Of a stretch of DNA of 23,200 bases, positions 387-20,200 are shown in pieces. Origin of the DNA: a virus. The first letter of the stretch is position 1, and each line of letters starts with the position of its first letter. The position numbers and the translations under genes are program-made. The stretch spans positions 1 through 23,200 of the IMG/VR virus record IMGVR_UViG_3300025132_000314; one strand, given 5' to 3'. Under the pieces are notes generated by a model. The model saw only the letters and a program-made list of their open reading frames with translations. It had not been told where the DNA came from and made no database searches.

Positions 387-1208
387 CTATAAACTATCTC
401 GTTGTTTCATTAATCTATTGAATTGTTGAGTTATTCTAAAAGCTTTATCACTTAGACTCTGTTTCATCTGATAATCTGTTAGTTTAGCAGCCATCGCAAG
501 AAGCTTTTTCTTTTCGGCTTTTAATTTTTGTATCTGTTTATTCAACTGTTCTTTCTTTTTAGCATCCTCATCGATACTTTTTTCACCTTTAGATTTGTAA
601 TTTCTATCTACATAATTAAAGAAATCTTTTTTATCAGAATCACTCATATCTCCGATATCAGAAACATTAAATTTTTTCATAGCTTTTTTAAAAAATGCTT
701 TGTAATCATCTTCTTCTCTGAACATCATTCTTTCAGCTTCATCCATATCATCTCTCATATCCCTATCATCATCATCGTGACCTGGTATATGTTTTTCCCC
801 TATCTGATAATATCTACCTAATATGTGTCCCATATCTTCATACAATCCACTCATTCTTTCCTGTAGAGAATTAGCTTCCGTAGCTACTTTACCGAATTGT
901 TTTGATAGTCCTGTGAGTTCTTTCATATTACGACTGACTGTTACTTTATCGAACATATCATCAACTTCTGATAAAGTGTGTTGAGCTGCTCCTTCTGCTA
1001 TAGAAGATAAAGTTTCTGCTACCTCTTTCAGATTACCTTTACCATAAATTGACTCACCTATAGAATTGAAGTTGCGAATTGTTTCGGTTAACTCTTTTAC
1101 ATTTACAGATGGTTGTTCCTCTTCATTCTTTGTCCAAGGACTTTCTGAAATTACACCACCAGCAACTGTTATTTCGTTGAGTAAATCTTTTAATTTTATA
1201 TTAGCCAT
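387..1208 (-). CDS. Acidic, helical head-region protein; scaffold candidate
   Basis: This is a 273-residue protein of unknown function. The N-terminus, M-A-N-I-K-L-K-D-L-L-N-E, resembles that of the gene at 1850-1233 and ends in L-N-E, a possible prohead-protease site. The middle is acidic (an H-D-D-D-D-R-D-M-R-D-D-M run around residues 143-155). Next comes a segment with K-F-N-V-S-D-I-G-D-M-S-D-S-D-K-K-D-F-F-N, of a type I recall from marine T4-like head proteins. The C-terminus is a predicted coiled coil rich in K, Q and L. Charge, helicity and position downstream of the gp21-like protease make a scaffold/prohead-core role (like T4 gp22) the best guess, but no domain proves it. The ATG has AAGGAG 6 nt upstream, and 24 nt separate it from the preceding stop. 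Confidence 0.8.
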   Translation of the reverse strand: MANIKLKDLLNEITVAGGVISESPWTKNEEEQPSVNVKELTETIRNFNSIGESIYGKGNLKEVAETLSSIAEGAAQHTLSEVDDMFDKVTVSRNMKELTGLSKQFGKVATEANSLQERMSGLYEDMGHILGRYYQIGEKHIPGHDDDDRDMRDDMDEAERMMFREEDDYKAFFKKAMKKFNVSDIGDMSDSDKKDFFNYVDRNYKSKGEKSIDEDAKKKEQLNKQIQKLKAEKKKLLAMAAKLTDYQMKQSLSDKAFRITQQFNRLMKQRDSL

Positions 1209-1221
1209 AATATTCTCCTTA

Positions 1222-1233
1222 GATATAAATATC
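1222..1233. promoter_or_regulatory. Near-palindromic AT element GATATAAATATC
   Basis: Arms GATAT and ATATC flank a 2-nt AA centre, placed between the stop of one head gene and the RBS of the next. It contains TATAAATA on the plus strand (1224-1231). Similar elements are at 125-140 and 5709-5723. A promoter or processing role is possible but unproven. Confidence 0.2.
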
Positions 1234-1850
1234 TACTTTCTTAATTTTCCTTTCGGCATATATCGCCTAAATCCACTTCTAACTTTTCTAAACAACATTC
1301 TTAAAAAGGGTCTTTCTCCTTCGTGTGTTCTATTTACTTTGCCAGTTTCTATACCTCTGACAATATCCAATGCATCATACTTACCACTTTTAACACCATC
1401 CATCATTATTTTAATAACTTGCTGTGAAGCCTTACCCAATACATTCGACATTTTTTTAACATCAACATCTATATTAGACTTTGCTTCAGGATTACTGAAC
1501 TTAGCAGGTATAGAGGTGATATCTTCTTTTTGAAATTTATCTTCCAAACCATCCTTACCATCCAAATAATTGTAAACACTTTGTAAGTAATCCATAGATT
1601 TAGTAAGTTTAGATTGTACCCATGCTGGCATTGATACTTCACCACCATTACCAACGTTATCAACTATTTTGTAAATCATTTTAGCATACTTCATAGAACG
1701 TTCTAATTGAGCTTTAGCCATTTTACCTTCATGGTCACCAGCTTCATTGACATCATACTTTTTCTTTTTGTACAATATATCAAGAGCATCTATATCTTTA
1801 TCAATATAGTCTTCCGGCTTTTCTAACAATATGTCTTTAAGTTTTATCAC
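1233..1850 (-). CDS. Conserved head-region protein with short LXE-ending leader
   Basis: A 205-residue protein of unknown function. The leader, M-I-K-L-K-D-I-L-L-E, is nearly the same as that of the neighbouring 273-residue protein and ends in L-L-E, matching the (L/I)-X-E specificity of T4-type prohead proteases. Residues about 39-95 form a recognisable block (G-K-M-A-K-A-Q-L-E-R-S, then P-A-W-V-Q-S-K-L-T-K-S and D-Y-L-Q-S-V-Y-N-Y-L) of a kind I recall from marine T4-like phage structural genes. The C-terminus is strongly basic (F-R-R-Y-M-P-K-G-K-L-R-K), perhaps for DNA contact. The start is GTG at 1850-1848, overlapping the upstream TGA (GTGA). I see no SD sequence before it, so translational coupling is likely. 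A capsid-internal or core protein is my inference. Confidence 0.8.
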   Translation of the reverse strand: MIKLKDILLEKPEDYIDKDIDALDILYKKKKYDVNEAGDHEGKMAKAQLERSMKYAKMIYKIVDNVGNGGEVSMPAWVQSKLTKSMDYLQSVYNYLDGKDGLEDKFQKEDITSIPAKFSNPEAKSNIDVDVKKMSNVLGKASQQVIKIMMDGVKSGKYDALDIVRGIETGKVNRTHEGERPFLRMLFRKVRSGFRRYMPKGKLRK

Positions 1851-2497
1851 TTTATTAATTTATATGCAATATCAGCCATCTTTGAGATAGATAACTTTTC
1901 ATATCTTTTTTTGTTAGCACCCGTTAGTGCTTGATGTACTTTCATTATAGCATTGGCAGTTTGCATGTCTATAATAACTCCACCGATTCTTTTGAATTGT
2001 TTTTTCTTTACAATATCCTTTATCTTATCCATATTGTTGGCTTCATTTACGGACTCGCCTGCAAATTGTCTTTTGTAAAAATCTACATCTGATTTAGATT
2101 GTTTTTTAGGAGCTGGTTTATCTTTCTTTTTGAACTTATCTTTAATTCTTTGAAATATACTCTTTGCTTTTTTATGAGCTGAAGGATCTTTTTTTGCATA
2201 GGAAGATTGACGAGCAGTATTTACAGATATCTTATTTCCTTGAGCATTCTGTATAGCCATACGGGCTGCTGTAGCGATTACTGCTGGGTTTTCATTCAGA
2301 ATCGACTCATACATTTCTTTAACCTTTTTTGGTAAATCATCATGTTTTGTAGCAGCGTATTTCTTAACAGATTTCTTATCCATAGATTTAGCAGCCTTCT
2401 GAGCAGCTTTGGAAAACTTACTAGCAGGCACATCACCTTTCTGTATAGCTCTTACTATACCCATAAATTTCTGTTGCTGTTTGGATTTGGCTGGCAT
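1847..2497 (-). CDS. DUF3008-like basic protein with a conserved C-terminal helical domain
   Basis: A 216-residue, very basic protein. The first about 60 residues (M-P-A-K-S-K-Q-Q-Q-K-F-M-G, then A-A-T-K-H-D-D-L-P-K-K-V-K-E) match from memory the small DUF3008 family, usually a free-standing protein of phages and bacteria with unknown function. A lysine-rich linker follows (about 95-140). The C-terminal about 60 residues (K-K-K-Q-F-K-R-I-G-G-V-I-I-D then A-N-A-I-M-K-V-H-Q-A-L) form a second helical unit that I recall from marine phage head proteins. The product therefore looks like a fusion of two small modules. An internal E-S-I-L-N-E could be a prohead protease site. The ATG is one base after the preceding stop, with AAGGA 8 nt upstream. 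It lies just after the protease block, so a prohead component is plausible. Confidence 0.8.
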   Translation of the reverse strand: MPAKSKQQQKFMGIVRAIQKGDVPASKFSKAAQKAAKSMDKKSVKKYAATKHDDLPKKVKEMYESILNENPAVIATAARMAIQNAQGNKISVNTARQSSYAKKDPSAHKKAKSIFQRIKDKFKKKDKPAPKKQSKSDVDFYKRQFAGESVNEANNMDKIKDIVKKKQFKRIGGVIIDMQTANAIMKVHQALTGANKKRYEKLSISKMADIAYKLIK

Positions 2498-2756: not shown

Positions 2757-3359
2757 CTATCCCCTCATTATATCGTTAATGACTGCTTCAACCCTACCAT
2801 ACTTTGTATCACGAACTGCGACATTCTTATCAACACTTTCGTTCATTGGATATAGGAAAGCACCATGTGTAGATGGATTACTTACGAAATCAAAAGCGAT
2901 TAGTTCAAAGTCATCACCTACCTGTTGAGCATCCGATTCGTGCATTGGTTCTACTGAACCCATTCCACGAGAAGATATACCTAATTTGATTCCATTCTTA
3001 AATAATTCTCTGAGTATGTTACCGCTTGGTGTGGTTAGTATCTCTACTGTACCGACTAAATCATCTCCATTGAATGACATCTCTGTAATATTGTGGGAGA
3101 CATTTGATAAATTCACAACAGATGACTCAGGATGGTCGAGTTCTCCCATAGCTCTTTTTTGTTTTACAAACCCTTCGGAATACTTCTTTGCCTCCCGCAT
3201 TAGAATTTCTTTTGGATAAACCCTACCATTTTGGTTTTTGGTATCAGCTCTTTGTAGAACACCCTTAACAACTAATTTTCCGTTGTTTTCTTTCATAGCC
3301 TCACTTATCTGGTGTGGCTGTATTTCAAATGGTAAATAATCTACTATTAATTGTTTCAT
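2757..3359 (-). CDS. 21: T4 gp21-like prohead core protease
   Basis: A 200-residue serine protease of the T4 gp21 (herpesvirus assemblin-like) type. It would cleave scaffold and capsid proteins in the prohead before DNA packaging. Family hallmarks are visible: N-G-R-V-Y-P (45-50) after the first strands, G-E-L-D-H-P-E-S with probable catalytic His76, and L-G-I-S-S-R-G-M-G-S with the nucleophilic Ser at 129 or 130. A-F-D-F-V-S-N-P-S-T around residue 157 closes the fold. T4 gp21 is about 212 residues, so the length fits. H-Q-I-S-E-A-M at 16-22 holds I-S-E, matching the (L/I)-X-E cleavage rule, and may be a self-processing site. The start overlaps the upstream stop as ATGA, implying coupling. 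Identification is firm; the exact catalytic Ser and Asp are inferred. Confidence 0.94.
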   Translation of the reverse strand: MKQLIVDYLPFEIQPHQISEAMKENNGKLVVKGVLQRADTKNQNGRVYPKEILMREAKKYSEGFVKQKRAMGELDHPESSVVNLSNVSHNITEMSFNGDDLVGTVEILTTPSGNILRELFKNGIKLGISSRGMGSVEPMHESDAQQVGDDFELIAFDFVSNPSTHGAFLYPMNESVDKNVAVRDTKYGRVEAVINDIMRG

Positions 3360-5728: not shown

Positions 5729-7534
5729 TTAATTTTTCTTAGTATTAATGGAAGATACTTCAGATTTATATTCATCTTCAATTTCATTTGACTCATTAAT
5801 AAGTGTTTTTGCATTAGTACCTAAATGTTTAAACAAATTTTCGTAATGCTTTAAGGCGGTGTTACTATAAGCCATCTTTTTATCATGCGCACCCAATGGG
5901 TCTCTACCTCTCACACCACTATCTTTGCTGTATTTATTAGCTTCTTTTGGTCTTCCAGAACCTGGCTGTCCACCTTCGTCTGAACCACCTTTATCATCTA
6001 ACTCATGACCTGTTCTTCCCATAGCCATGTCTGATGGTGTGCCTTGTGATTGTCCACTTTTAGCAGGATCATTACCTTCTGATTCAATCTGTTGTCTTCT
6101 AAATTTATTTTTGTAATCAAATATTATTTGGTCGTCATTATCTTTAATCTGTTCATCTGTAAAACCAAATATATTTTTGTAAATCCATTCGGATGACATT
6201 AAACCATCCCTAACCATTGAATCGGCTAAAGAAGTTTTTTGTGTCCATAATTCAAGTTTTTCTTGTTCATATATTGTTGATGGATTTGTTAAACCTAAAT
6301 CAAAATTTACAAGTTCTTGGTCTCTAAATCCCTGTGAATAGAGATGAACGACAGCAATCTTAGTCAATTCACTAACTACAATTCTTTGTATCCTTTCAAT
6401 TGTTCTGGCAAACCTAACATCTTCAGCTGCCAACGTAGCCTTTGAACCCAATCCTTCTTCATATCCTAAGAAAGCCTTTGGAACTCTCAATGAAGCCATT
6501 AGTCTGTTTCTCAGATACTCAATGTCATCTACAGCATCATAGCTCAAACCACTAAGTGATTCAATATTAGTTCCACTATCACCACCCCTTACAGGTAAGA
6601 AAAAGTCTTCTGTTAGATTTTGTATGTTGTAACGAAGATTGTAATCACCTGTTTTCTCATCTATGACAGGAGCTTTCTTCATTTTATTGATTGTCTGTTG
6701 CATAAAGTTATCAACTTCAGCAGGTGGTATGTTACCGATATCTAACTTGAATATTCTTTTTTCAGGTGCTCTCATTATACGATGTATCAACATAGCATCT
6801 TCCATAAGAGTTAATTGTTTCCAAACTTTACGTCCAGCCTCTAACATAGAACGACCATAAGGTACATAGTTTGAGTCTGATAGTAATCTGAAATGAGCTA
6901 TCTCATAATTCTCAAAAGTCTTCGTATCTTGTTTTTTCTCCGTATGTCTATTAGCATCTCCCTGTGGTGTTAACATAAACTGAACTAATTGTGGATTATC
7001 TGGATCGTGTCCTTCCATACGAGCAACGTCATAAGCTGACATCGGTGTAACATTTGTCACTCCGTACTTTTCTGTCACTTCTAATTGTAAAAAGAAGTCA
7101 CCATATTTATTCATATTACGAACCCACGGCCAAAGATTAAACTCAATATTGATTATATCGTAAAATAAATTATGTAAAATATCGTATATCTGATTATTAT
7201 CTGTTTGGATATCCAATACCTTACCGTATTCATTCTTCATAGTAGATTCATCTGAGTAAATATCTAAAGCAGATGCAATAATTGAATCAGTATCCATTGA
7301 CTCATAATCTCTAAATAAACCTAAGCGTAATTGTTGTTGATACAATTGGTCACTATATCCGTATTGTTGCATATTTGAATATAGTTTACTATACCTATCA
7401 ACTAAGTTAGTTTGGATACTAGATTGTAATTGTCCTGTGTCTACAATCTTTAGTTTTCTACCACCGATATTTCTAACAATTGTATTTGTAGAAAATAATC
7501 TTCTTAGTCTTGAAAATAAATCTTTTTCAGCCAT
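5729..7534 (-). CDS. 20: T4 gp20-like portal protein
   Basis: A 601-residue portal protein, the dodecameric ring at the capsid vertex through which DNA is packaged and ejected and which nucleates head assembly. The gp20 signature is clear: F-F-L-P-V-R-G-G-D-S-G-T (about 311-322), N-I-E-S-L-S-G-L, then Y-L-R-N-R-L-M-A-S-L-R-V-P-K-A-F-L-G (about 340-357) and the long crown helix with A-A-E-D-V-R-F-A-R-T-I. T4 gp20 is about 524 residues. The excess here is a hydrophilic, Gly/Ser/Lys-rich tail from about 485 that ends acidic, perhaps flexible. The ATG has an AGAGG-type RBS that overlaps the terminase stop region, 11 nt after that stop, so the two packaging genes are co-expressed. Confidence 0.95.
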   Translation of the reverse strand: MAEKDLFSRLRRLFSTNTIVRNIGGRKLKIVDTGQLQSSIQTNLVDRYSKLYSNMQQYGYSDQLYQQQLRLGLFRDYESMDTDSIIASALDIYSDESTMKNEYGKVLDIQTDNNQIYDILHNLFYDIINIEFNLWPWVRNMNKYGDFFLQLEVTEKYGVTNVTPMSAYDVARMEGHDPDNPQLVQFMLTPQGDANRHTEKKQDTKTFENYEIAHFRLLSDSNYVPYGRSMLEAGRKVWKQLTLMEDAMLIHRIMRAPEKRIFKLDIGNIPPAEVDNFMQQTINKMKKAPVIDEKTGDYNLRYNIQNLTEDFFLPVRGGDSGTNIESLSGLSYDAVDDIEYLRNRLMASLRVPKAFLGYEEGLGSKATLAAEDVRFARTIERIQRIVVSELTKIAVVHLYSQGFRDQELVNFDLGLTNPSTIYEQEKLELWTQKTSLADSMVRDGLMSSEWIYKNIFGFTDEQIKDNDDQIIFDYKNKFRRQQIESEGNDPAKSGQSQGTPSDMAMGRTGHELDDKGGSDEGGQPGSGRPKEANKYSKDSGVRGRDPLGAHDKKMAYSNTALKHYENLFKHLGTNAKTLINESNEIEDEYKSEVSSINTKKN

Positions 7535-7545
7535 AATTTTACCTC

Positions 7546-9123
7546 TTAGTTAATTAACCAATCTAAGTTTTCTTTTTCTCCGTTGGGACCTATTTCCATT
7601 TCCCAAGAGTTAGTCTTATTGGTTGGTTTTTGTGGTATCATTTGTGTTGATACACCACTTAAAGTTTTTTTAGTTAGTTCTATACCTTCATTTCTTAATC
7701 TTAATGCAGTATCTCTTACCCAAAGAGTCAAAGCAAAACTCATAACTAAATCATCGTTATATCCCTGCATCGCTTCAGCTTTATTGTTGTTATATATAAA
7801 TACAAACAATTCATCAATTAATCTATTTGAACGAACAATTACTGATTTTTCTCTGAAATATTCTTCTAATTTAGATATTACTAATGGTCTTGTTTTCATA
7901 GTCATACTAAATCCAGCTACCATATTTCTATCTTGTGTTCGATATCTGTTATTTATTTGATGTTCAGTATCTACATACTTCAAATCTTTACTTGTGTAAA
8001 ATAAGTTTTCATAACCTCTATCAATACATTGTTGTAGAGCAGCCCAACCTATGTTATTATTTTCAACAACCAATAAAGCGTTATTATATTCTGTGGCAAC
8101 GTTGACACATAAATTACCAAAATCTTTTGTAGACATTCTACCTTTATACTCAGCTACTTGTTCCATAGTTTCTATATCCATAACGTGAAACGCTGAATAA
8201 TCCGAACCATCCCCTCTACTAACATCAGCACTTAGTACATAGTCTTTTGTATAGTTTGGTGATTGCCATATCCAAAGGTTACTATCTACTCCTCTTTTCT
8301 CTAAAGGGTCTTGAGCTTGCTTCTCTCTGTACTCTTCAAGTATAACACCATCAATAACTGTTTGTCCTGAAGTTATAAAATCACAATCACATTCTTGAGC
8401 AGCTAATGAAGGACCTAATAATTTATCTTGCTCTTTTCTCCAATCTTTATTTCTTTCTGGATGTAGATTCCAATGTAATTTAATAAAGTTCCAATCATTT
8501 GTCCCATCTTCGGCACCCACCCAAGTTTTGTGAAACCAATTACCCACACCATTCGGAGTAGATAGTGCGATACATTGTCCACCAGTAGATAGTGTCTGTG
8601 AAGCAGCAGCCCATATCGGTTCAATTTTATCAATAAAAGCAGCCTCATCCAATATTAATAATGAAAGAGCCTCAGAACGACCAGAATCTTCTCCGCTTGA
8701 GACTGCTTTAATTTGTGAACCATTCTTATATCTCAAAGATAGTTTATTATCTTCCGTACATTTTTGTTTCAACCAAGAGGGTAAGTTGGCGTGCATCACT
8801 CTTACTTTTGTAACTAAGTTTTTTGCAGTATCTTGTTTAGTTGCAATTACTAAAATATTTTTATCTTGTCCGAATGTCATCATCCAAAGTGAATAACCAG
8901 CAGTTAAAGTTGATAAACCTAACTGACGAGCTTTTAGTATAATGTTGAATCTATGGTCTTCAAAAGTACCTAATGCTTTTTCTTGATACTCGTATAAATG
9001 AAATGGCACTTTTCCTTTCATTGGATGCTGAACAACGCAATATTTTTTCAGAAAATATACAGGATCTTGAGCACACTTTGTATACTCTTTTTTTATTACT
9101 TCTTTTAGTACTTGTGGTTTCAT
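7546..9123 (-). CDS. 17: Terminase large subunit (T4 gp17-like packaging ATPase/nuclease)
   Basis: A 525-residue DNA-packaging motor protein. It hydrolyses ATP to drive DNA into the prohead through the portal and cuts concatemers. The ATPase half has an adenine-binding region (F-H-L-Y-E-Y-Q, about 41-47), a Walker A variant K-A-R-Q-L-G-L-S-T (64-72), Walker B L-L-I-L-D-E-A (155-161) and a coupling motif A-L-S-T-P-N-G (186-192). The nuclease half has acidic metal ligands in S-A-D-V-S-R-G-D-G-S-D-Y (298-309), V-V-E-N-N-N (352-357) and N-D-D-L-V (456-460). I use the ATG at 9123, with AGGA 8 nt upstream and a TAATG overlap with the preceding gene; the in-frame TTG at 9159 would lie inside that gene. 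No separate small terminase is recognisable here. Confidence 0.96.
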   Translation of the reverse strand: MKPQVLKEVIKKEYTKCAQDPVYFLKKYCVVQHPMKGKVPFHLYEYQEKALGTFEDHRFNIILKARQLGLSTLTAGYSLWMMTFGQDKNILVIATKQDTAKNLVTKVRVMHANLPSWLKQKCTEDNKLSLRYKNGSQIKAVSSGEDSGRSEALSLLILDEAAFIDKIEPIWAAASQTLSTGGQCIALSTPNGVGNWFHKTWVGAEDGTNDWNFIKLHWNLHPERNKDWRKEQDKLLGPSLAAQECDCDFITSGQTVIDGVILEEYREKQAQDPLEKRGVDSNLWIWQSPNYTKDYVLSADVSRGDGSDYSAFHVMDIETMEQVAEYKGRMSTKDFGNLCVNVATEYNNALLVVENNNIGWAALQQCIDRGYENLFYTSKDLKYVDTEHQINNRYRTQDRNMVAGFSMTMKTRPLVISKLEEYFREKSVIVRSNRLIDELFVFIYNNNKAEAMQGYNDDLVMSFALTLWVRDTALRLRNEGIELTKKTLSGVSTQMIPQKPTNKTNSWEMEIGPNGEKENLDWLIN

Positions 9124-9461
9124 TATATCTTTCCTAAAATAAATCCTATTCCTAACCAAAGATATTGACTTTCATACCATTTCGGCTTTACTAACTCTAC
9201 TAACTTTTCATTCAGCTCATCACGAGTTTTTAATAAATTAATTTGTTTATCCTTAGCATCTAGTAATAGTGAATCAACTTTTGCCTGTTCCTCCATCTTT
9301 GATACTAATTCTTCACATATCGAAAGAGAGTTTGCTATACGAGCACTGTCTGCCTGTAATTCTTTGATATTGTTAGCAATATTTATCATCTCTTTTTGAG
9401 TAAGAGTCACATCTTGAGAAAACAAAGGTACTAGTAGTAATATTGTAATAAAGTATCTCAT
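9123..9461 (-). CDS. Small exported membrane protein with coiled coil (lysis candidate)
   Basis: About 112 residues. M-R-Y-F-I-T-I-L-L-L-V-P-L-F-S-Q is a short signal-peptide-like N-terminus. A charged helical/coiled-coil middle (about 20-85, with K-E-L-Q-A-D-S-A-R-I) follows, then a C-terminal hydrophobic stretch (Y-L-W-L-G-I-G-F-I-L-G-K-I). That topology resembles a single-protein spanin or another envelope-spanning lysis factor, but no lipobox cysteine is seen at the signal end, so this stays a guess. I place the start at the ATG at 9461, one base after the upstream TAG. A TTG at 9476 would add five residues inside the previous gene. The stop overlaps the terminase start (TAATG). Confidence 0.65.
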   Translation of the reverse strand: MRYFITILLLVPLFSQDVTLTQKEMINIANNIKELQADSARIANSLSICEELVSKMEEQAKVDSLLLDAKDKQINLLKTRDELNEKLVELVKPKWYESQYLWLGIGFILGKI

Positions 9462-10307: not shown

Positions 10308-13300
10308 CTATACGAATTTTAACATACCTAAGATTTGATTTGCTGGTGCAAATGCGCCGGTATATTTATATAGTTTTCCTTTAAATACAAAAGTAATCCC
10401 TTCTGATGGTACTACTGATTTTAAACCACCAATAGCATTCAATCTATCTAGTTGAGTTTTTAATGTGTTTAATACCTTTGGATTCTTTGATTTTTTAACT
10501 TGTGAAATCGCTTTAATCAAATCTTGTCTGATTTTTTGCACAGCTTTTTTAGGATTAGCAGCTATAAAATCACTAAGATTAGAAAGTATTTCGGCTCCTA
10601 ATTCAAAGAAAAGAACTTCCCAATCTCTTATGTGTTTCTTTTGTAGTTTTGCATGATCCATTTTATCTGTTGATAATATCCAATCTAAAAACTTTGGATA
10701 TTTTTTTAAATCTTTTCTTATCTGTGGTACTTTGTAAGACTTATCAAAGAAAGCCCATCTTCTAACTAACTTTACTAAAATTCTATTATCTGGATTTTTA
10801 TAATCTGTTTGTTTAGCGCCATTATAAATGTACTCCATCCAATATGCCTGATGATATTCAGCTAATGTATTACTTCCTTTTAAATTATATTCTTTTTGCA
10901 ATTTATCCAATTTACCTAAGAAATAACTTTGTCTTTTACTGAAGTCTTTAACTTTTGGTAACTGTGATATGAAAGGTTTTTCAATTTTAAATGCTTTTTG
11001 TATGTCTTGGTTTACCTGTTTAATCATACCAGCCAACATTCTAGCACTACCTCTATCTTCTCCGATTGGTGCACCAGCAGAATCATACTCAATAGTTCCG
11101 TGAAACTGTAATAGTGATTTATCATAAGGTATGACATTTGCAGTCTTAGGATATATAACCTCTAAAGACATAAATTTTTTACCTTCATCAAATATTTTAT
11201 TTTTTTGAGCATCACTCAAACTAGCTACTGCTTTTTGTAAATCTCTCATAGCGTAAACAAATGCTTTTTCAATTTCACCCCTACCAGCAAACATATTTTT
11301 AATTCCATTTATATCCAATGCATTAGCACCATAATTTTTAATATGTCCTTTGTTACGGGCTGCGATAAGTTTTCCATTCTTCCAACTCACCATTATATTC
11401 TGACCATCTGTCTTTTCTGTAACTGCCCCCTCACTATCCAGTTTTCCCTGTAGTGTATTAATAATTAGTTTTCTAAAATCTGAAAATGTCAAATTTTTAT
11501 CATCAAATGGATGATTAAGATGTCCATATGCACCACCTTCCAATATTAGTTTGACTTCTTTATCTAAATTAAATTTTTCAAATAAGGATTCTATCTCATA
11601 AGAGTCTTCATCGGCTCCAGCTGCAAACAATGTACCTATTATATTATTTATAGCCGCTGTTGTTCCCATCCAACTAACAACTTCCCAACCCAAAGGTTTG
11701 ACAACACCATCCATCCATTTTTTATACTTAGTTACAGCTGATGTTGAACCAGCTGCTTGTCCGTGGTCTAAATAAGTCAAAGGTACTGACCTGTATTCTT
11801 TTGTTATTGAATTTTTTGCATCGTTACTCAAAACATAGTCAACAACTTTCCAACCAGCTTCTTTATAGATTGAATCTAACCATTTTTTAGAAGTTTCTTT
11901 GTATGTGTTGTAATCAGTATAGAATGTCGAAGGCCCATCATCTAAATTTCCGTTAGGTGTGGATGTAGCTTCCAGTAAAAACTCTTCAATGAGTTCATCT
12001 GATAAATCATATGATTCAAATAATTTTCTAAATTTGTTTGTCATCATATTATACACACCTTTATCGAAATAACCAAATACTTTTTTGAATCCTTTTATTC
12101 TTTCTTTTTCATCTACATTGGGATCACCTAATAGTTGTCTCATCTGTGTACCACTTACATTACCTGCTTGTGGTGCTGTGAGATAGTAGCCATGAATATC
12201 AAATCCCTCTAAATTGTTTTTGTTTTTAATAAAATCTTGATAGTAAGTTTTTCCACCACCTTTTTTAGTTCCACCTTTTAATCTACCAGCATCTTTAACA
12301 CCAAAAGCATAAACAACTGCTGTGGTATTGGGATTAAATTTTTTGAGTAGATTAGCTGCTACATATGGAGTTTTCTCTTGTATAATTCTATTTTTTGGAA
12401 TACCCATCTTAACCATATGTCGAACTTTTTCTTTGAAGTCCATTGGATGTCTTGGTGGTTGTTTTATATTAGATGTAGTTATGTAGGCTTCATCAACTCT
12501 TTTACTTAACCATTTGTAAGTAGCTAAATGTCCACTATGAAATGGTTGAAATCTACCACCAAATACTCCGATGACTTTTTTGATTTGTTTTTGTTCATTT
12601 ACTTTTTTATAACCACTACCATAAGGAACGGAAGTGTTTCCTTTCTTCTTCATCTTTTTTACCATCTTACGACTTGGTGATGGTAACATACCAGCTGGTG
12701 CTCCGAGCTCCTCATTCTTCTTTTTGGTTTTCTTCTTCATCTTATTGATGTAAGCACGGTAAACAGCAGCCTGTGATGTCTTACCCATTTCTCTAGCTCT
12801 TTGTTCCATAGCAACTGCTGCTTGTATTTTATGAGCGTGAGATTTACCACTACCTCTGATTTTACTAACCGATGCCTTAGCATCTTTGACTGTAGCAAAC
12901 TTTAATCCTTTGATTGTTCCTTTTGGATTCTCATCTGTGTATAAATCAGAGTGTGACTTTGAACCACGATGTTGTCCTTTTTTACGAGGTACTCTTGGTG
13001 CCTCATCAACACTTTTTAAAAAATCTTTATCTCTACCCATTCTGAATTTGACAACAGGCCTTCCATTTATAGTTGGCATTCCGTATTTATCTTTTCCAAT
13101 ATTTTTTACAAACACCTTTTTGTTTTTAAATCTTCCTGTTAGAATTGTATCTCCAACATTCACATCTATTTTAATTTTTTCATCTAATATCTTTTGTTTA
13201 GCTATCCACTTTTTACCTCTGAAATTCTTCACGGGTTTACGGATAAAATTACCTATACCTTTTTTAACCAACATATTGAATTTTTTTGTAGCTGCTTTTT

Positions 13301-13934
13301 CACTCAAAGTATCACTATTGTTAACCATCATAAAATTAGCATTACCGAAAAGTCCCTGAAAAACTTCTCTATTTCGTTGAACATCTCTCCAGCTTTTTTC
13401 TACTAGCTCTGGATTGAGTTTACGTGGTCTTTCCATATTTCTTTGTTGAGCTATTTCTAAATCCGTATGAACAAATACCATAAAACAATCGTAACCTATT
13501 TCTTCGAGTTCCATTTTTTGTTCTTTAATCTTATTGTATTTATGTCCTGTACCATCTATGATTAAACCTAACCTACCATCCATGTAGAGTTTCTTACGCG
13601 CAGCTGTAAGTTCTTTTGCTCTACTTCGTAATCCGCTGTAGTCTTCGTAATCAGGATCGGTTAATTGTCTGAATAGTTCTTCTGGCATATCATCTAAATC
13701 TGTACCGAATCCATACTTCTTCAACATACGAACTAATTCTTTATCTTGATTGACTAATTTCAACCCATAAGCCGATACATTTATCTTCTTAGGGATGCCA
13801 AACAATCCACTACCAACAAATCCTTTACCACTACCAGGACCGCCAGCCAAAAATACTGCTTTGAGAATACCAGGATCGTTGATTCCTTCTTCTATTAAAA
13901 AAGGTTCTGTTAAATATTTTGTAAGTTTATCCAT
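10308..13934 (-). CDS. Fused P-loop kinase, nucleotidyltransferase and RNA-ligase-like enzyme (possible polyprotein)
   Basis: 1208 residues with three recognisable catalytic domains. (1) About 25-215: P-loop kinase of the zeta-toxin/polynucleotide-kinase type, with Walker A G-G-P-G-S-G-K-G (31-38), L-I-I-D-G-T-G (124-130) and an Arg-rich lid (R-N-M-E-R-P-R-K, 165-172). (2) About 450-625: cytidylyltransferase-like fold with G-G-R-F-Q-P-F-H-S-G-H (459-469) and V-S-G-T-Q-M-R (593-599), as in NMN adenylyltransferases. (3) About 800-1208: covalent nucleotidyltransferase (RNA/DNA ligase class) with E-K-T-D-G (840-844, Lys841 the adenylation site), A-R-N-K-G-H (859-864), S-L-E-V-I-Y (923-928), S-E-G-I-T-F (1177-1182) and K-L-Y-K (1187-1190). 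Basic linkers join them, and 660-780 is an unknown internally duplicated segment. Leaders ending in LTE, LLE and ILE precede domains. No SD is seen before the ATG. RNA or nick repair is one plausible role; substrates are unknown. Confidence 0.88.
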   Translation of the reverse strand: MDKLTKYLTEPFLIEEGINDPGILKAVFLAGGPGSGKGFVGSGLFGIPKKINVSAYGLKLVNQDKELVRMLKKYGFGTDLDDMPEELFRQLTDPDYEDYSGLRSRAKELTAARKKLYMDGRLGLIIDGTGHKYNKIKEQKMELEEIGYDCFMVFVHTDLEIAQQRNMERPRKLNPELVEKSWRDVQRNREVFQGLFGNANFMMVNNSDTLSEKAATKKFNMLVKKGIGNFIRKPVKNFRGKKWIAKQKILDEKIKIDVNVGDTILTGRFKNKKVFVKNIGKDKYGMPTINGRPVVKFRMGRDKDFLKSVDEAPRVPRKKGQHRGSKSHSDLYTDENPKGTIKGLKFATVKDAKASVSKIRGSGKSHAHKIQAAVAMEQRAREMGKTSQAAVYRAYINKMKKKTKKKNEELGAPAGMLPSPSRKMVKKMKKKGNTSVPYGSGYKKVNEQKQIKKVIGVFGGRFQPFHSGHLATYKWLSKRVDEAYITTSNIKQPPRHPMDFKEKVRHMVKMGIPKNRIIQEKTPYVAANLLKKFNPNTTAVVYAFGVKDAGRLKGGTKKGGGKTYYQDFIKNKNNLEGFDIHGYYLTAPQAGNVSGTQMRQLLGDPNVDEKERIKGFKKVFGYFDKGVYNMMTNKFRKLFESYDLSDELIEEFLLEATSTPNGNLDDGPSTFYTDYNTYKETSKKWLDSIYKEAGWKVVDYVLSNDAKNSITKEYRSVPLTYLDHGQAAGSTSAVTKYKKWMDGVVKPLGWEVVSWMGTTAAINNIIGTLFAAGADEDSYEIESLFEKFNLDKEVKLILEGGAYGHLNHPFDDKNLTFSDFRKLIINTLQGKLDSEGAVTEKTDGQNIMVSWKNGKLIAARNKGHIKNYGANALDINGIKNMFAGRGEIEKAFVYAMRDLQKAVASLSDAQKNKIFDEGKKFMSLEVIYPKTANVIPYDKSLLQFHGTIEYDSAGAPIGEDRGSARMLAGMIKQVNQDIQKAFKIEKPFISQLPKVKDFSKRQSYFLGKLDKLQKEYNLKGSNTLAEYHQAYWMEYIYNGAKQTDYKNPDNRILVKLVRRWAFFDKSYKVPQIRKDLKKYPKFLDWILSTDKMDHAKLQKKHIRDWEVLFFELGAEILSNLSDFIAANPKKAVQKIRQDLIKAISQVKKSKNPKVLNTLKTQLDRLNAIGGLKSVVPSEGITFVFKGKLYKYTGAFAPANQILGMLKFV
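10363..10370 (-). promoter_or_regulatory. Possible T4-type late promoter core (TATAAATA)
   Basis: The minus strand reads TATAAATA here, correctly oriented, inside the last codons of the 1208-residue gene and about 65 nt before the zinc-ribbon gene start at 10298. It would suit a late promoter for the lysis/terminase genes. The same octamer occurs by chance inside other AT-rich coding sequence, so support is slight. Confidence 0.25.
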
Positions 13935-14257: not shown

Positions 14258-17200
14258 CTATTGTACTGTGTAAGTTGCTGAAAGATATATATAAGAATTA
14301 CCACTACTGATATGATCCCACTCTAATGCTCTCCACGCAGCACCAGTAATCGATTCATAAATCAACAGTTCTGTTCCATTTGTATAAACTGTCATGTTAC
14401 CCCGACCTGCTGTAAATGTTATGGTATGGAGCATACAAGTACCAACAACATTTGCAACAGATGGTGAATATGGTAATCCGGAAATTTTTATATCGTTGCC
14501 AGAACCACCGACATCTACAATAATTTGTCTTATCTGTGCCCATACGTGAACTGAGTCACCGATTCTAATGTATCTAGCATTTGCGATTGTACCACTACCA
14601 GCGAAATTCAAAGATGGTGTCCACGTTCCTTCATCGTAGTAAGCTAGTGATTCATTACCAAATTGTATTCCACTCGTATCCGTAACAAAACCACCGTCTG
14701 CTTGAACTGCGCCAGTTGCTGTTATAGAATCAATACTACTAATATCTGTACTTCCATCGCCGACTATATTTCCATTTGCCTCTATATTTCCTGCAAATGT
14801 GGATGTTCCATCCACAACTAAATTATCAGTACCTGGATCTGTTGCACCACCTACATGAACGCCACCATATGCACCTATGTAGTTATCAACGACTAAATTA
14901 TCAGTACCTGGATCGGATGTTCCACCAACATGAATACCACCTAAAGCTGTAATATAATCACTTACCTCTACGTGAGTACCAACATAGAGATTATCAGGAG
15001 TGTAAATTCCGTAAGTATTTGATATTCCACTATGAGTACCTGAAGTTGCAAAGTATCCACCTATGAGAGTTCCGGATGTAGAAGAAGTACCATCTACTTC
15101 CCCAATCAATCCTGCAATTTTATCATTAGCTCTAAGTGAAGTACCACTACCTGACATGTGTGCTACAAATTTTCCAGCTCCAGCTAATCCAGTTCTTTGG
15201 CTATTATGTGTTAAGATACCATTGGCAAAAAATGTATGATTAACTTCTATTTCAATATCATAAGTTCTTATTTGTTCATAGTAAACTTCAGCTTTTATCA
15301 GCTTTGTTTTCCTAAGAGTTGAACCATCATTGAATAATATTTCATCTCCGATTTCTAACTGATTCCATTTTTCATTTATCCAATGATGTACCCTCTCTCC
15401 CCTTTTTGGATTCCAAGCAGTAACTCCATCTTTACCCTCAACAATAAATGGGTTAGCGATCGTTGCGTGAACAAAAGTATCGTTATCAAACCATAACTTT
15501 ACAGTTAAATCATCATCTTCTTTTAAATGTTCTTGTGTAAATAATTCTTTTACTCTTCTATTTTCTAATTTTTTTGTTAATATATTGTAAGATTGTACCA
15601 TCTCCCCTATTTTAACATCTTCTATATTTTTTTCTGTTCTATCCGACATCAAAATCTTTGTTCCAGCAATAAAACACTCAGCAGCATTGGTTGCAGCAGT
15701 CAACTGTGCTTGGGTTCTACCTGAAATTGTTCCGAGAGAAGCGCCAGTTGAAGAAGTACCAGTACCAGTATTGAAAACCGTTCTGATATCAATAAATGCA
15801 TCACTTCCAGTTATTGAAGCAAAGTTTGAACCTCCAAATATCGACCAATTGGATACGTTTCCTTGATCGGGAACAAATCCCCTTGCCATCTGTAGACCAA
15901 CTCCTGAGACATTAGTACCACCCTGATATTGGTCGTCTCTCAATATTCTAAATGCAGATGCATCTTGGTTTGATATTATTTCAATATCGGAGCCGGTTAT
16001 AGCAGTTGATGTTATTTCAAATCCACCAATTTTACCAGTTGCAGCTGTAACCTTACCAGACATAATTACATTACCATCATTCTTCAGATGAAAATTACTA
16101 GAACTTATTTCTATGTTAGTATTACTACCACTTACAAATTGAGAACTGCCACCTAAGAAAAATCTTTCTGATTTCATAAATAGAAAATCATCATTTCCTG
16201 AATATCTTATGTGAGAAGCATTTGCTTTACCTATTTGAAATCTAGCTCCGTTAAATCCTGATTCCAAGTAAAATCCATCGGTGTTACCACCATATGAAAC
16301 TCCGCTATGATTTCTTAGTATCGTGTTTATCCCGCTACTACCAGTTGTAGTTGTTATCATAAATCCTTCATATGAAGAATTTGGTTGTGCTACCACGCCA
16401 GCTTCAACACCGCCGTTATTTTGTAGGCTTGCTCTACCCATCCAAAAATCAACTCTTGCTGCACCAGATGCAGCTTTTATAGTTTGCTGTATACCAACAC
16501 CCATTGACTGGCTAAAATTAGTAACATTGATTAAGGGTAGATTGCTGTTATTTGGATATGATGGTGACAAAACCACCGATCCAGTTACAAATGGACCCAA
16601 GCCCAATAGTCCTGATGTATCATTGATAACATTTGAAAATAGAGTTGAACCAGTAATTTCAAATGAAGATATGTCACCTGATGTTGCTCTAACTTTACCT
16701 TTCATCTCCAACCCAGCAGCTGATGCCGATAGAGCGGTTGTGTTTGCATCTGTCTTTATTTCTAAAGCATCGCTTGTTATTTTTACGTGCTTAGCTGCTG
16801 TAGAACCGATGGTTGTTGTCGCTCCAAGTGAGGCTCTTATCGTATCCGTGCCACCTGAGTCTGTTATAAAATCTAATGTTGAACCATCTAGTTTTGCAAA
16901 TGAACTATCGTTTGCATCAACACCTAGTTTTAGAACATCTGAGGTTAACGAGATTTTTTCAGAATTATCTTCTTTTATGAAGACACCACTACTATTAATT
17001 TTTACTTGGTCGGTCGAACTCCCTATTATGGTTTCTGCTGCAAAAGTAGCTACTGGAGTACTAGCATCACCATCGAATACTTTCATTCCATTCGCATCTA
17101 CTGTAGCCTTATGAGTATTATCTTGAAAAATACTCACAGTACCACTGGCAATTCTAATACAATCATCCGTAGATGTTGTGGTTACAGCAGCACCAGAACT

Positions 17201-20200
17201 ACCAATTACAGTTGTAGCACCAAATATTGCTCTGACTTGACTGTTCTCAGTTAAGGTAAATCCTGAACTATCAATTACTAATTTATCTGCTGCTGATGAA
17301 GCAAGTGTGACAACACCAGTATCTATATTCAATACATTAGTTCCAGCCTCATCAAACATATCGATATCAGATGAACTAAACACAAGTCTATTTCGTGTAC
17401 CATCGTTAATAGTAATCGTTCCACCAGTTAATGTTACATCATCACCAAATGAAGCAATATCAGTAGTATTGTTTCTAATTTTAATTCCAACGTTTTCATC
17501 AATAAATACATTTCGTTTATTTGTGTCAACCTCACCCAATGTAATATCAGAGGAGAAACTTGCTAAAGTTGTTGAACTATTTTTTACTGTTAAACCTGTG
17601 CCTGATACGACTGCGTGCTGTCCAGATGTATTACCAACTGACACATCGGTGCGCGACATAGAAATCTGTCCTTCTGCATCTGAACCTATCGTTATACCGC
17701 CGGCTACGAATTTACCTTTTACGGCTGTACCCTCTTTGATTTGAAAGCCTGTTGTGTCGATGACTGCATGTGAACCTGTTGGAGAACCCAAACTTACCTT
17801 ACCAGCTCTTTGTAAATGAAATCTCGAAGAACTTATCTCTATCGAACCAGCAGCTCCACTTACGAAAGCAGTAGCTTTACTTCCTATTAAGAAATCAGAA
17901 GATGATACTATCAGTTTTGTACCATCAAACGATATCCTACTAGCAGTAGCATCACCCATCATAAATTCACCACTACCAGTTACATACATTCCTCTTCCGC
18001 TTGTTATACCTGTTGGTAAAACTTTACCGAATGACATTGAGGATTCGGTTGATGATATCTGAAAAGCGTTTGTATTTATATCAATATTTTTTGATTTAAT
18101 AGTTAGAGGTGAACCGATTCTTATTTCATTTCCATCGGTATCTCTAAGAGCAAATTGTCCTGATTCTGATACGAACATACCAGCTCCAGAATCTAATCCT
18201 GCGTTTTGCCCAAATTTTAAGAATCCAGCACCTGTTGATGTATCTATTTCAAAATCTGGTGTTTTAACTCTAAAATCACTAACTCCGATTCTAACATCAC
18301 TACCAGTTATCAGAGCTGCTGAAGCAGTCAACTTACCTTCCATATTCACATTGAATGGTGCATCAGCAAAATTAGCATGTCCTAAATGTAAACCTCTGGT
18401 TGCTATAGCTGTGGATGTCGATGCATTAACTTTGAATACTGTATTGCTACTACCAAGCAACATTGATGAATTACCCGGATTGAGTTCAAAATTTGTAGCC
18501 GATAATGTGTTAGTTCCTATATTAAATTGTCCTATTGTTCCATCTGTAGCACTAATTTTTCTAACTATCACATCACCACTTGATTTGATATGAAACTTTG
18601 ATGAACTAATTTCCAACTTACCACCACTACCACTTACAAAAGCACTACCTGTTGCTCCCATAAAAAATGATGGTGTTAGTATATTTACTGCACTTCCACT
18701 TAGTGTTGTTGTGCCTGAACTTTGTATAACCAATGAACCACCACTACCACTAATAAAGTTTCCTGCCTTACCTAATCTAAAACTTGGTGCGCCTAGTAAT
18801 ATTTCACTACCACTAGCATTAAATTTTTCAGTTTGTATATCGACATTTGTTCCGTCAAATTTTATAAATTTATTAGAACCATCTCCAGCATAAAGCTTTC
18901 CACCTCCACCACCAGCACTTACATACTCTAATTGAATACCATCTTGCCCAAAAGTTGCTTTATTTATAGCTAATTTTTTAGCAAATGAATCCATAAACAT
19001 ACCGCTAGATGATATTTGAGTGGTGTTTAATGTCCAACCACCAATTTTTCCCTCTGAAGCAACAACCGAACCACTTATCTTCATTGTATTTGTAGTAGGA
19101 TTCAGATGGAAAGCAGATGAACTAATTTCCAAACTACCACCTGAACCACTAATGAATTGTGTGTTTGAATCACCGAGTAAAAATTTTGAAGAACTAATTA
19201 TCAGATTAGTACCATCCCACTCAATTCTACCATGACCTGCTTTACCAGCTCTGAAGTGTCCACTGCCACTCATAAATACACCAGTTCCACTTGTCAAACT
19301 TTGTCCAGTAGCACTAGCACCCAATACAATCTTAGCAGGAGAGCTATTGATAACAAGAGTAGAACCAGCAACCAAATCAAATACTGTTGATTTCATCTGT
19401 ATGGTAGTTCCATTGAAGTAAATAAAATTATCACCACTTCCCTGATCTTCACCGACTCTAAAGTTACCAGCACCATCCATATAGACACCTGTATTGTCTG
19501 TGGCGTTTATGGAAGAAGCATTTGTACCCAATACCAATTTTGGTGTGGTGTTTTCTAATATGAGTGTTGTTCCACCCTTTAAATCAAATGTTTCGGATTT
19601 TATTGTTAGGGATGAACCTGACTGATGTATAAAATTGTTACCATCCCCTTCCACACCGGTTCTGAAATGTCCGTTGGTGTACCAAAAATTATTATTATTT
19701 ACATAGATTCCGTCAAGTGTGTTGTTAACATTAGTACCTAACTTAATCTGATTTGAATTATCGGTTTTTATATGTACTATTCCTGTAAACGAACCTGTTG
19801 TAGCGGTTATAGCACCTTGTAGGAATACGTTTTCTGTGAATAAACCAAAACCAGGTGATGCGTTTCCAAACAATAAACCACTACTCAATCCACTCAAATC
19901 ACCCAATCTAGCTTTCAGAGCAACATCGTAAACACCACTACCGGTTCTTTCAACGATATCGATATAAGGTGTTGTTGTATCGTTTGGATTTGCATTCAAT
20001 CTTATGAAACCACTACCACTTACTCCTGTTGATACTATAACCTGACCTGGTTCGAAAGATTGTGAAATGTTTGAGGAATCTCCTAAAGAGCCAGATGAAC
20101 CAGCACTACCACTTTGATAACCTCTAACGACATAAAGTTTTCCACTAAAATCAGTTTCGCTTGATGGTACATCTCTTGATGCACTTTCAACCAACATATA

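Follow-up and report, generated by a model that had tools for sequence, protein, structure and literature searches.

The window analysed here is the 23,200-base IMG/VR virus record IMGVR_UViG_3300025132_000314 (positions 1 to 23,200). On its minus strand, a single late-gene polypeptide unites several effector-type domains, recognised by Pfam matches and motifs as zeta-like kinase, NMNAT-like and ligase-like (Table 1). The gene is flanked by tail genes and by terminase and portal genes, a placement shared with Microcystis phage Mel-JY01, whose terminase shares 56% identity with the one in the window. A T4-like head block on the same strand encodes the large terminase, the portal, an S77/gp21 protease and small leader-bearing proteins (Pfam, PHROG). 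The major capsid protein (MCP) gene does not lie within the window, and the MCP maturation site was taken from related contigs.

The original prediction, made from the letters of this DNA, held that the enzyme fusion may be a polyprotein that is packaged in the head and cut after (L/I)-x-E by a gp21-like protease. The motifs it named were found exactly where it placed them (KYLTE at residues 6-10, EFLLE at 651-655, KLILE at 795-799, with KLFESYDL and SLFEKFNL in the internal spacers), and the protease is indeed encoded about 7 kb away. The two internal spacers do resemble each other, and each carries a second [LI]-x-E (LFE) about 13-15 residues upstream.

Table 1 Features of the polyprotein gene and the neighbouring head block (a slash marks a candidate cut)
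Feature	Coordinates	Strand	Basis
Polyprotein gene, 1208 aa, ATG start	10308..13934	-	Open reading frame (ORF)
N-terminal leader MDKLTKYLTEPFLIEE, residues 1-16	13887..13934	-	Conserved across different first modules, ends [LIV]-x-E
P-loop kinase, residues 17-248, zeta-toxin / polynucleotide-kinase-like	13191..13886	-	Pfam, PDB profile, Foldseek
Small basic module IKIDVNVGDTILTGRFKNKKV..., residues 250-303	13026..13187	-	Present, absent or moved in relatives
Module 313-408 (PRVPRKKGQHRGSKSHSDLYTDENPKGT...), VDE/A in front	12711..12998	-	Relatedness to cyanophage proteins
PSPSRK linker module 409-450, ends KKVNE/Q	12585..12710	-	Module-insertion hot spot in relatives
NMNAT/cytidylyltransferase-like domain, residues 452-635	12030..12581	-	Pfam, PHROG
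Spacer 637-655 (KLFESYDLSDELIEEFLLE/A), probable head-protease site after E655	11970..12026	-	Conservation in relatives
Module 656-782 (ATSTPNGNLDDGPSTFY...)	11589..11969	-	Relatives have other variants in its place
Spacer 783-799 (SLFEKFNLDKEVKLILE/G), probable head-protease site after E799	11538..11588	-	E in 87/142 distinct relatives
RNA-ligase-like covalent nucleotidyltransferase, residues 800-1208	10311..11537	-	Motifs EKTDGQN ... MSLEV ... SEGITF ... KYTG
Large terminase, T4 type	7546..9159	-	Pfam 1.7e-12
Portal protein gp20	5729..7534	-	Pfam 2.2e-73
Prohead protease, gp21 / Peptidase S77	2757..3359	-	Pfam 3e-26; PHROG head maturation protease 1.6e-52
Head-block neighbour with leader MIKLKDILLE/K	1233..1850	-	Kept in related phage
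Head-block neighbour with leader MANIKLKDLLNE/I	387..1208	-	Kept in related phage

Enzyme units and exchangeable modules

The kinase unit is of the zeta-toxin/AAA_33 type (Pfam Zeta_toxin 9.9e-8, 32.1 bits against a cut-off of 22.3) and gave a PDB profile match to zeta toxin (2.5e-6). The folds of the kinase and ligase units were predicted and then compared by Foldseek, where the matches of the kinase included zeta toxin and a polynucleotide kinase of C. thermocellum (TMt ≤ 0.74). The NMNAT-like domain was recovered by Pfam as CTP_transf_like (3.3e-9, 37.5 bits against a cut-off of 21) and by PHROG as cytidyltransferase (1.2e-6). The C-terminal 409 residues are probably RNA-ligase-like, an assignment based on motifs: the residues of the KxDG, E, EG and K motifs (E41 K42 D44 G45, E126, E379 G380 and K391) were invariant in 33 sequences. 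RNA ligases ranked first among the PDB matches to the predicted ligase fold, weakly (E 0.02-0.4, TM below 0.2); the window ligase had no Pfam RNA_ligase match, and one relative reached E=0.0054, below the cut-off. Module 656-782 showed no significant Pfam match and no assignable family. The ORF of one relative (L076:10001-13656; matches 1-1040 and 1054-1208) is broken within its ligase domain, perhaps through a sequencing error or a real break.

Relatives were drawn from 362 related stretches in IMG/VR, of which 80 loci were kept, and kinase and ligase searches then added further loci. Judged by their sequences, they form an exchangeable train of modules behind an N-terminal leader. Between residues 300 and 460 of the window protein, small modules have been gained, lost or reordered among the relatives, and x-x-E closes nearly every one of them (VNE, LIE, MNE, LKE, IGE, VFE; sometimes KNE). 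A strict (L/I) rule at every module end was ruled out, since V/M-x-E, and in some cases K-x-E, closes the small modules. At homology breakpoints in a set of 59 non-redundant polyproteins, the final aligned position held E in 24% of cases against a background of 5.2% (4.6-fold, the top enriched residue), and Φ-x-E stood there in 15% against 1.7%. Of the small modules themselves, the basic one at 250-303 has a weak match in HTVC008M AGE60462, and that at 313-408 has a counterpart 77-80% identical in cyanophage proteins, which in P-TIM68 lies near the MCP gene.

Some relatives carry further domains. In one (L069:750-5597), a CCA-adding enzyme (tRNA nucleotidyltransferase, PolyA_pol 9.4e-30) and an HD domain are inserted before the NMNAT domain, with the kinase in the preceding ORF, and another (L257) has an added RNase_T-type exonuclease. 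A third (L217:622-4230) has its leader fused straight to the NMNAT domain and contains a Zn_protease (PF05618) module and, by eye, a probable Pol-beta-type nucleotidyltransferase.

Conservation of the leader and the two junctions

As the protein contains 17 [LI]-x-E motifs, their occurrence alone proves nothing; counting them was dismissed as evidence, and conservation was tested instead. Likewise, a scan for [LI]xE tags over all genes of one relative was too unspecific for statistics.

At the N-terminus, relatives carried a leader of about 14-17 residues that ended in (L/I)-x-E whichever module came next, be it the kinase, the small basic module, a PRKKGQ module or the NMNAT domain. Variants included MDKLTEFLTKPFL[N/T]E/GARDPGI..., MDKLTEFLTKPFLxE/, MKKLTKYLTKPFLxE/DIKIPV..., MNKLTRWLVETILTE/APRVPRKK..., MQTTKLTEYLIEPFLVE/QVKAKKVVGVYSGRF... 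and MSLEKLVEEITRPILQE/GVNDPG.... Given that the leader keeps its place while the following module changes, we regard it as an N-terminal element in its own right, separable from the modules and closed by (L/I)-x-E. The leader of the window protein ends in PFLIEE/G, and Φ-x-E was present in the leader region of 42 of 44 distinct N-termini. By its sequence it is probably a capsid-targeting leader, which is likely cut after E15/E16 and before G17. The short leader foreseen by the original prediction is therefore upheld, with its end displaced: the proposed site KYLTE/P11 was ruled out, as LTE at residues 8-10 is unconserved and mostly reads LTK/P in relatives, and the conserved N-terminal site is PFL-x-E/G at about residue 16.

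Upstream of module 656-782, [LIV]-x-E was found 8-9 residues before the DDGP motif in 52/52 distinct sequences, with P3 being L or I in 51. P1' was mostly S, A or G and P2 was variable; the variability of P2 was read from a logo selected for E, and the 52/52 count was made without that selection. The motif persisted even where the spacer was swapped for another, and in several relatives FLLE had changed to FLLD and a new site (IIKE/S, ILNE/N) had appeared about 10 residues downstream. The same rule describes the MCP maturation sites of related contigs (QLIKE/AS, QLIDE/SS, QLIQE/AS), in agreement with the proposal that (L/I)-x-E is the local gp21-type rule. Taken from this pattern, E655/A is a probable head-protease site.

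Split homologues, in which the units are separate genes, had been suggested as a check on the junctions, and their leaders do end in (L/I)-x-E at these places. The standalone ligase of LR756500 reads MKFLKSYEEFLNENLILE/GGSYGHLNHPFED, with GGSYGH after the cut point. Standalone kinases have a leader of 9-10 residues that ends in x-E/G at the cut point of the fused form and start with MKTFxELQE/GVYDPNIFKAFFL or variants (GVYDPNIF after the site); one of them (L088) starts MIKLSELLHE/GINDPG. Melnitz and HTVC008M are phages with such a split kinase, whereas Mel-JY01 has NMNAT and ligase fused, joined at IIAE/GGLGGH. Across the kinase N-boundaries of fused and standalone forms, P1 was E and P3 was L, I, V or M in 79/79 distinct sequences. 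The leader MKTFxELQE/G closely resembles those of the T4 internal proteins.

The junction before the ligase behaved differently from what had been predicted in part of the relatives. The residue preceding GGAYGH was E in 87, M in 54 and C in 1 of 142 distinct ORFs, so that LxE/GG stood in the first group. M-form genes have an ATG in frame exactly at the ligase start (for example in L017, L201:2601 and L072:11741). A Shine-Dalgarno sequence accompanied this ATG in 56/57 M-form genes, compared with 28/3821 other internal in-frame ATGs, and AAGGAG lay exactly 9 nt upstream in 52/57. The corresponding Lys-Glu was coded AAG-GAG in 33/36 distinct M-form DNAs, against a background share in these genes of ~27% of Lys codons for AAG and ~24% of Glu codons for GAG, and the AAGGAG nucleotides were retained in a relative whose amino acids differ (KDKRSLLLM). 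On a ligase tree from a quick search, with SH-aLRT support only, at least 8 changes between E and M occurred.

Considering that the M form repeatedly carries a Shine-Dalgarno sequence and an ATG, release of the ligase is not always proteolytic. Removal of a start methionine is expected before Gly, and the two routes, protease site and internal start, look like ways to the same ligase N-terminus GGAYGH. The interchange of E and M is an independent sign that a free ligase is wanted; by itself it is silent on packaging. In the window protein, E799/G is a probable head-protease site, to go by the E-form relatives. Conservation of leader and junctions, equivalence of split and fused forms, and exchange of a cut site for an internal ribosome-binding site and start are the sequence-supported parts of the case.

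Elsewhere in the head block, the proteins encoded at 387-1850 and 1847-2497 (minus strand) are probably further leader-bearing head proteins; the latter, a DUF3008 protein, has an internal YESILNE/N. The tail-fibre-like ORF at 14258-23020 contains a Hint/intein-like stretch at ~15180-15676 (minus strand; CFIAGTKILMSDRTEKN...ILTHNS; Pfam Hom_end_hint 1.4e-4, below the cut-off).

Proposed packaging and cleavage, and competing explanations

We consider it reasonably probable that the product of this gene is a polyprotein carried as head cargo by a T4-like marine phage, targeted by its leader and cut by the gp21-type protease into separate enzymes. Packaging, cutting and ejection of this protein, as we infer them, would proceed as follows. 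The leader (residues 1-16), like the capsid-targeting sequence of T4 internal proteins, would bring the chain into the prohead core, where the protease of the same block would remove it at PFL-x-E/G17. The protease would then cut at least at FLLE655/A and LILE799/G, and perhaps at the weaker Φ-x-E ends of the small modules. Kinase, NMNAT-like enzyme, module 656-782 and RNA-ligase-like enzyme would thereby be freed inside the head and ejected with the DNA. T4 Pnkp and Rnl1 act against tRNA-cutting defences, and by analogy the payload might heal and seal RNA ends, or restore nicotinamide adenine dinucleotide (NAD). A role in mending the damage that host defences do to nucleic acid (tRNA ends) and/or NAD is a tentative suggestion.

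Virion data exist for a related protein. Sullivan et al. detected the cytidylyltransferase T4-GC190 in purified S-SM1 virions (PMC3037559), and NMNAT-like proteins have also been found in the virions of other cyanophages (PMC10665884). The T4-GC190 gene of S-SM1 is SSM1_190, and its protein starts MKKFSAFLNE/AERSF; the cytidylyltransferases of Syn9 and P-TIM68 start MKKFSAFLSE/A and MKSFTSFFTE/A. The NMNAT unit of the window has, in this sense, a leader-bearing, virion-detected homologue, the kinship being drawn from the PHROG profile; tblastn with the NMNAT region of the window did not reach the cyanophage cytidylyltransferases. Directly upstream of the virion cytidylyltransferase lies a gene (L275:327-1301; S-SM1 SSM1_189, T4-GC71) with the ligase-like motifs VKWDGAPAIVFG ... 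HEGFVTV, and cyanophages may keep NMNAT and ligase as neighbours. In Atu_ph07, gp53 (AUZ94865; L008:4254-6587) consists of a leader MKWNDLNE/A, an unassigned N-terminal module, SEVTE/G and a kinase. Mass spectrometry found 29 proteins of the cluster of coding sequences (CDS) 31-76 of this phage, but gp53 goes unnamed in the main text (PMC6102473) and was not taken as virion evidence; its place in CDS 31-76 was obtained by counting from gp1=AUZ94813.

Several points weigh against a cleaved, packaged polyprotein. The virion evidence comes from homologues of one unit, the NMNAT-like one, and the authors of the cyanophage study caution that NMNAT-like proteins may co-purify with virions (PMC10665884). 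E799 is missing from the M-form relatives, so cutting there is not universal; KYLTE/P lacks conservation; and at 308-313 and 450 the modules finish on V/M-x-E, at times on K-x-E, which departs from the strict T4 rule. Other [LI]-x-E motifs within folded domains would also need protection. Finally, the E/G before the kinase could be needed by the kinase fold, and the E ahead of DDGP could likewise be bound to the fold.

Were the protein to behave like T4 Alt, only its leader would be removed, one fused multi-enzyme would be packaged and injected, and the LxE spacers would be ordinary amphipathic interdomain helices. The leader evidence, which is the strongest part, suits this explanation, as do the helix-like spacers and the roughly one third of distinct relatives without E at the ligase junction. 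However, the split ligase leader ends exactly in LILE/GG, loss of E is repeatedly coupled to a Shine-Dalgarno sequence and ATG at that codon, and junction 655 holds P3 and P1 while P2 varies; we regard an uncut fusion as unlikely. Less likely still is that the multi-enzyme protein is made late, stays unpackaged in the cytoplasm and has a leader that is a mere conserved helix. Virion detection is limited to homologues of the NMNAT unit and nucleotide-metabolism enzymes are common among non-structural phage proteins, but the location of the gene, with tail genes to one side and terminase/portal genes to the other both here and in Mel-JY01, the T4-type leaders on split versions and the detection of leader-bearing NMNAT homologues in virions argue against it. 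It is very improbable that the xxE linkers, instead of being protease sites, serve module shuffling as recombination joints at the DNA level: modules are clearly swapped, inserted and permuted, but the linkers have only P3 and P1 in common and differ in codons and flanking residues, and standalone leaders obey the same rule though no joint exists there.

If the packaged, cleaved polyprotein is real, it would account for the recurrent cytidylyltransferases in cyanophage virions and supply natural capsid-loading tags and junctions, and the claim is directly testable, since protease site and internal start codon take each other's place at one residue. A wider generalisation is possible, though we hold it with less confidence: marine T4-like phages may widely use processed polyproteins in which cargo modules each end in a head-protease site behind one leader, protease sites and internal starts being interchangeable, and the payload (kinase, NMNAT, ligase; in relatives CCA-adding enzyme, HD domain or exonuclease) may be a pre-made kit against tRNA-cutting or NAD-depleting defences.

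Comparison with known systems

In the giant phages phiKZ, 201phi2-1 and SPN3US, many ejected proteins are cut after glutamate, some repeatedly; there, unlike the scheme proposed here, the multiple cuts trim propeptides, and the accounts consulted describe no multi-enzyme release from one chain. The cyanophage NMNAT proteins (T4-GC190; S-SM1, Syn9, P-TIM68) share the NMNAT-like domain, the T4-type leader and the adjoining ligase-like gene (KWDG motif), but are encoded as separate genes instead of one polyprotein.

The scheme resembles both the T4 internal proteins and the polyvalent proteins (Iyer et al. 2017, PMC5512222; e.g., DarB/DdrB of phage P1). The latter are multidomain proteins thought to be delivered together with the DNA; their domains are swapped between relatives, zeta-like kinases are present, and some are processed before packaging. 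Self-processing by a built-in metallopeptidase has been proposed for them (PMC5512222), whereas here Pfam found no peptidase family in the polyprotein and the head protease would act in trans.

Like the window protein, the T4 cargo combines a short N-terminal leader with a glutamate site, a gp21-type protease in the block and an effector cargo. In IPIII, targeting requires no more than the first 10 residues, and processing depends on residues 8 and 10 (PMC9026906); IPI-III and Alt are all trimmed by gp21 (PMC9958956). Processing of IPIII was blocked when an Asp stood at the site of cutting. The T4 cargo differs in having one protein per gene and one leader cut, whereas here several enzymes lie in one chain with candidate internal sites. 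Among eukaryotic RNA viruses, cleavage of polyproteins by a viral protease is a hallmark. If the proposed processing is true, the internal-protein principle of T4 would reach beyond single proteins to a modular cargo kit in abundant marine phages.

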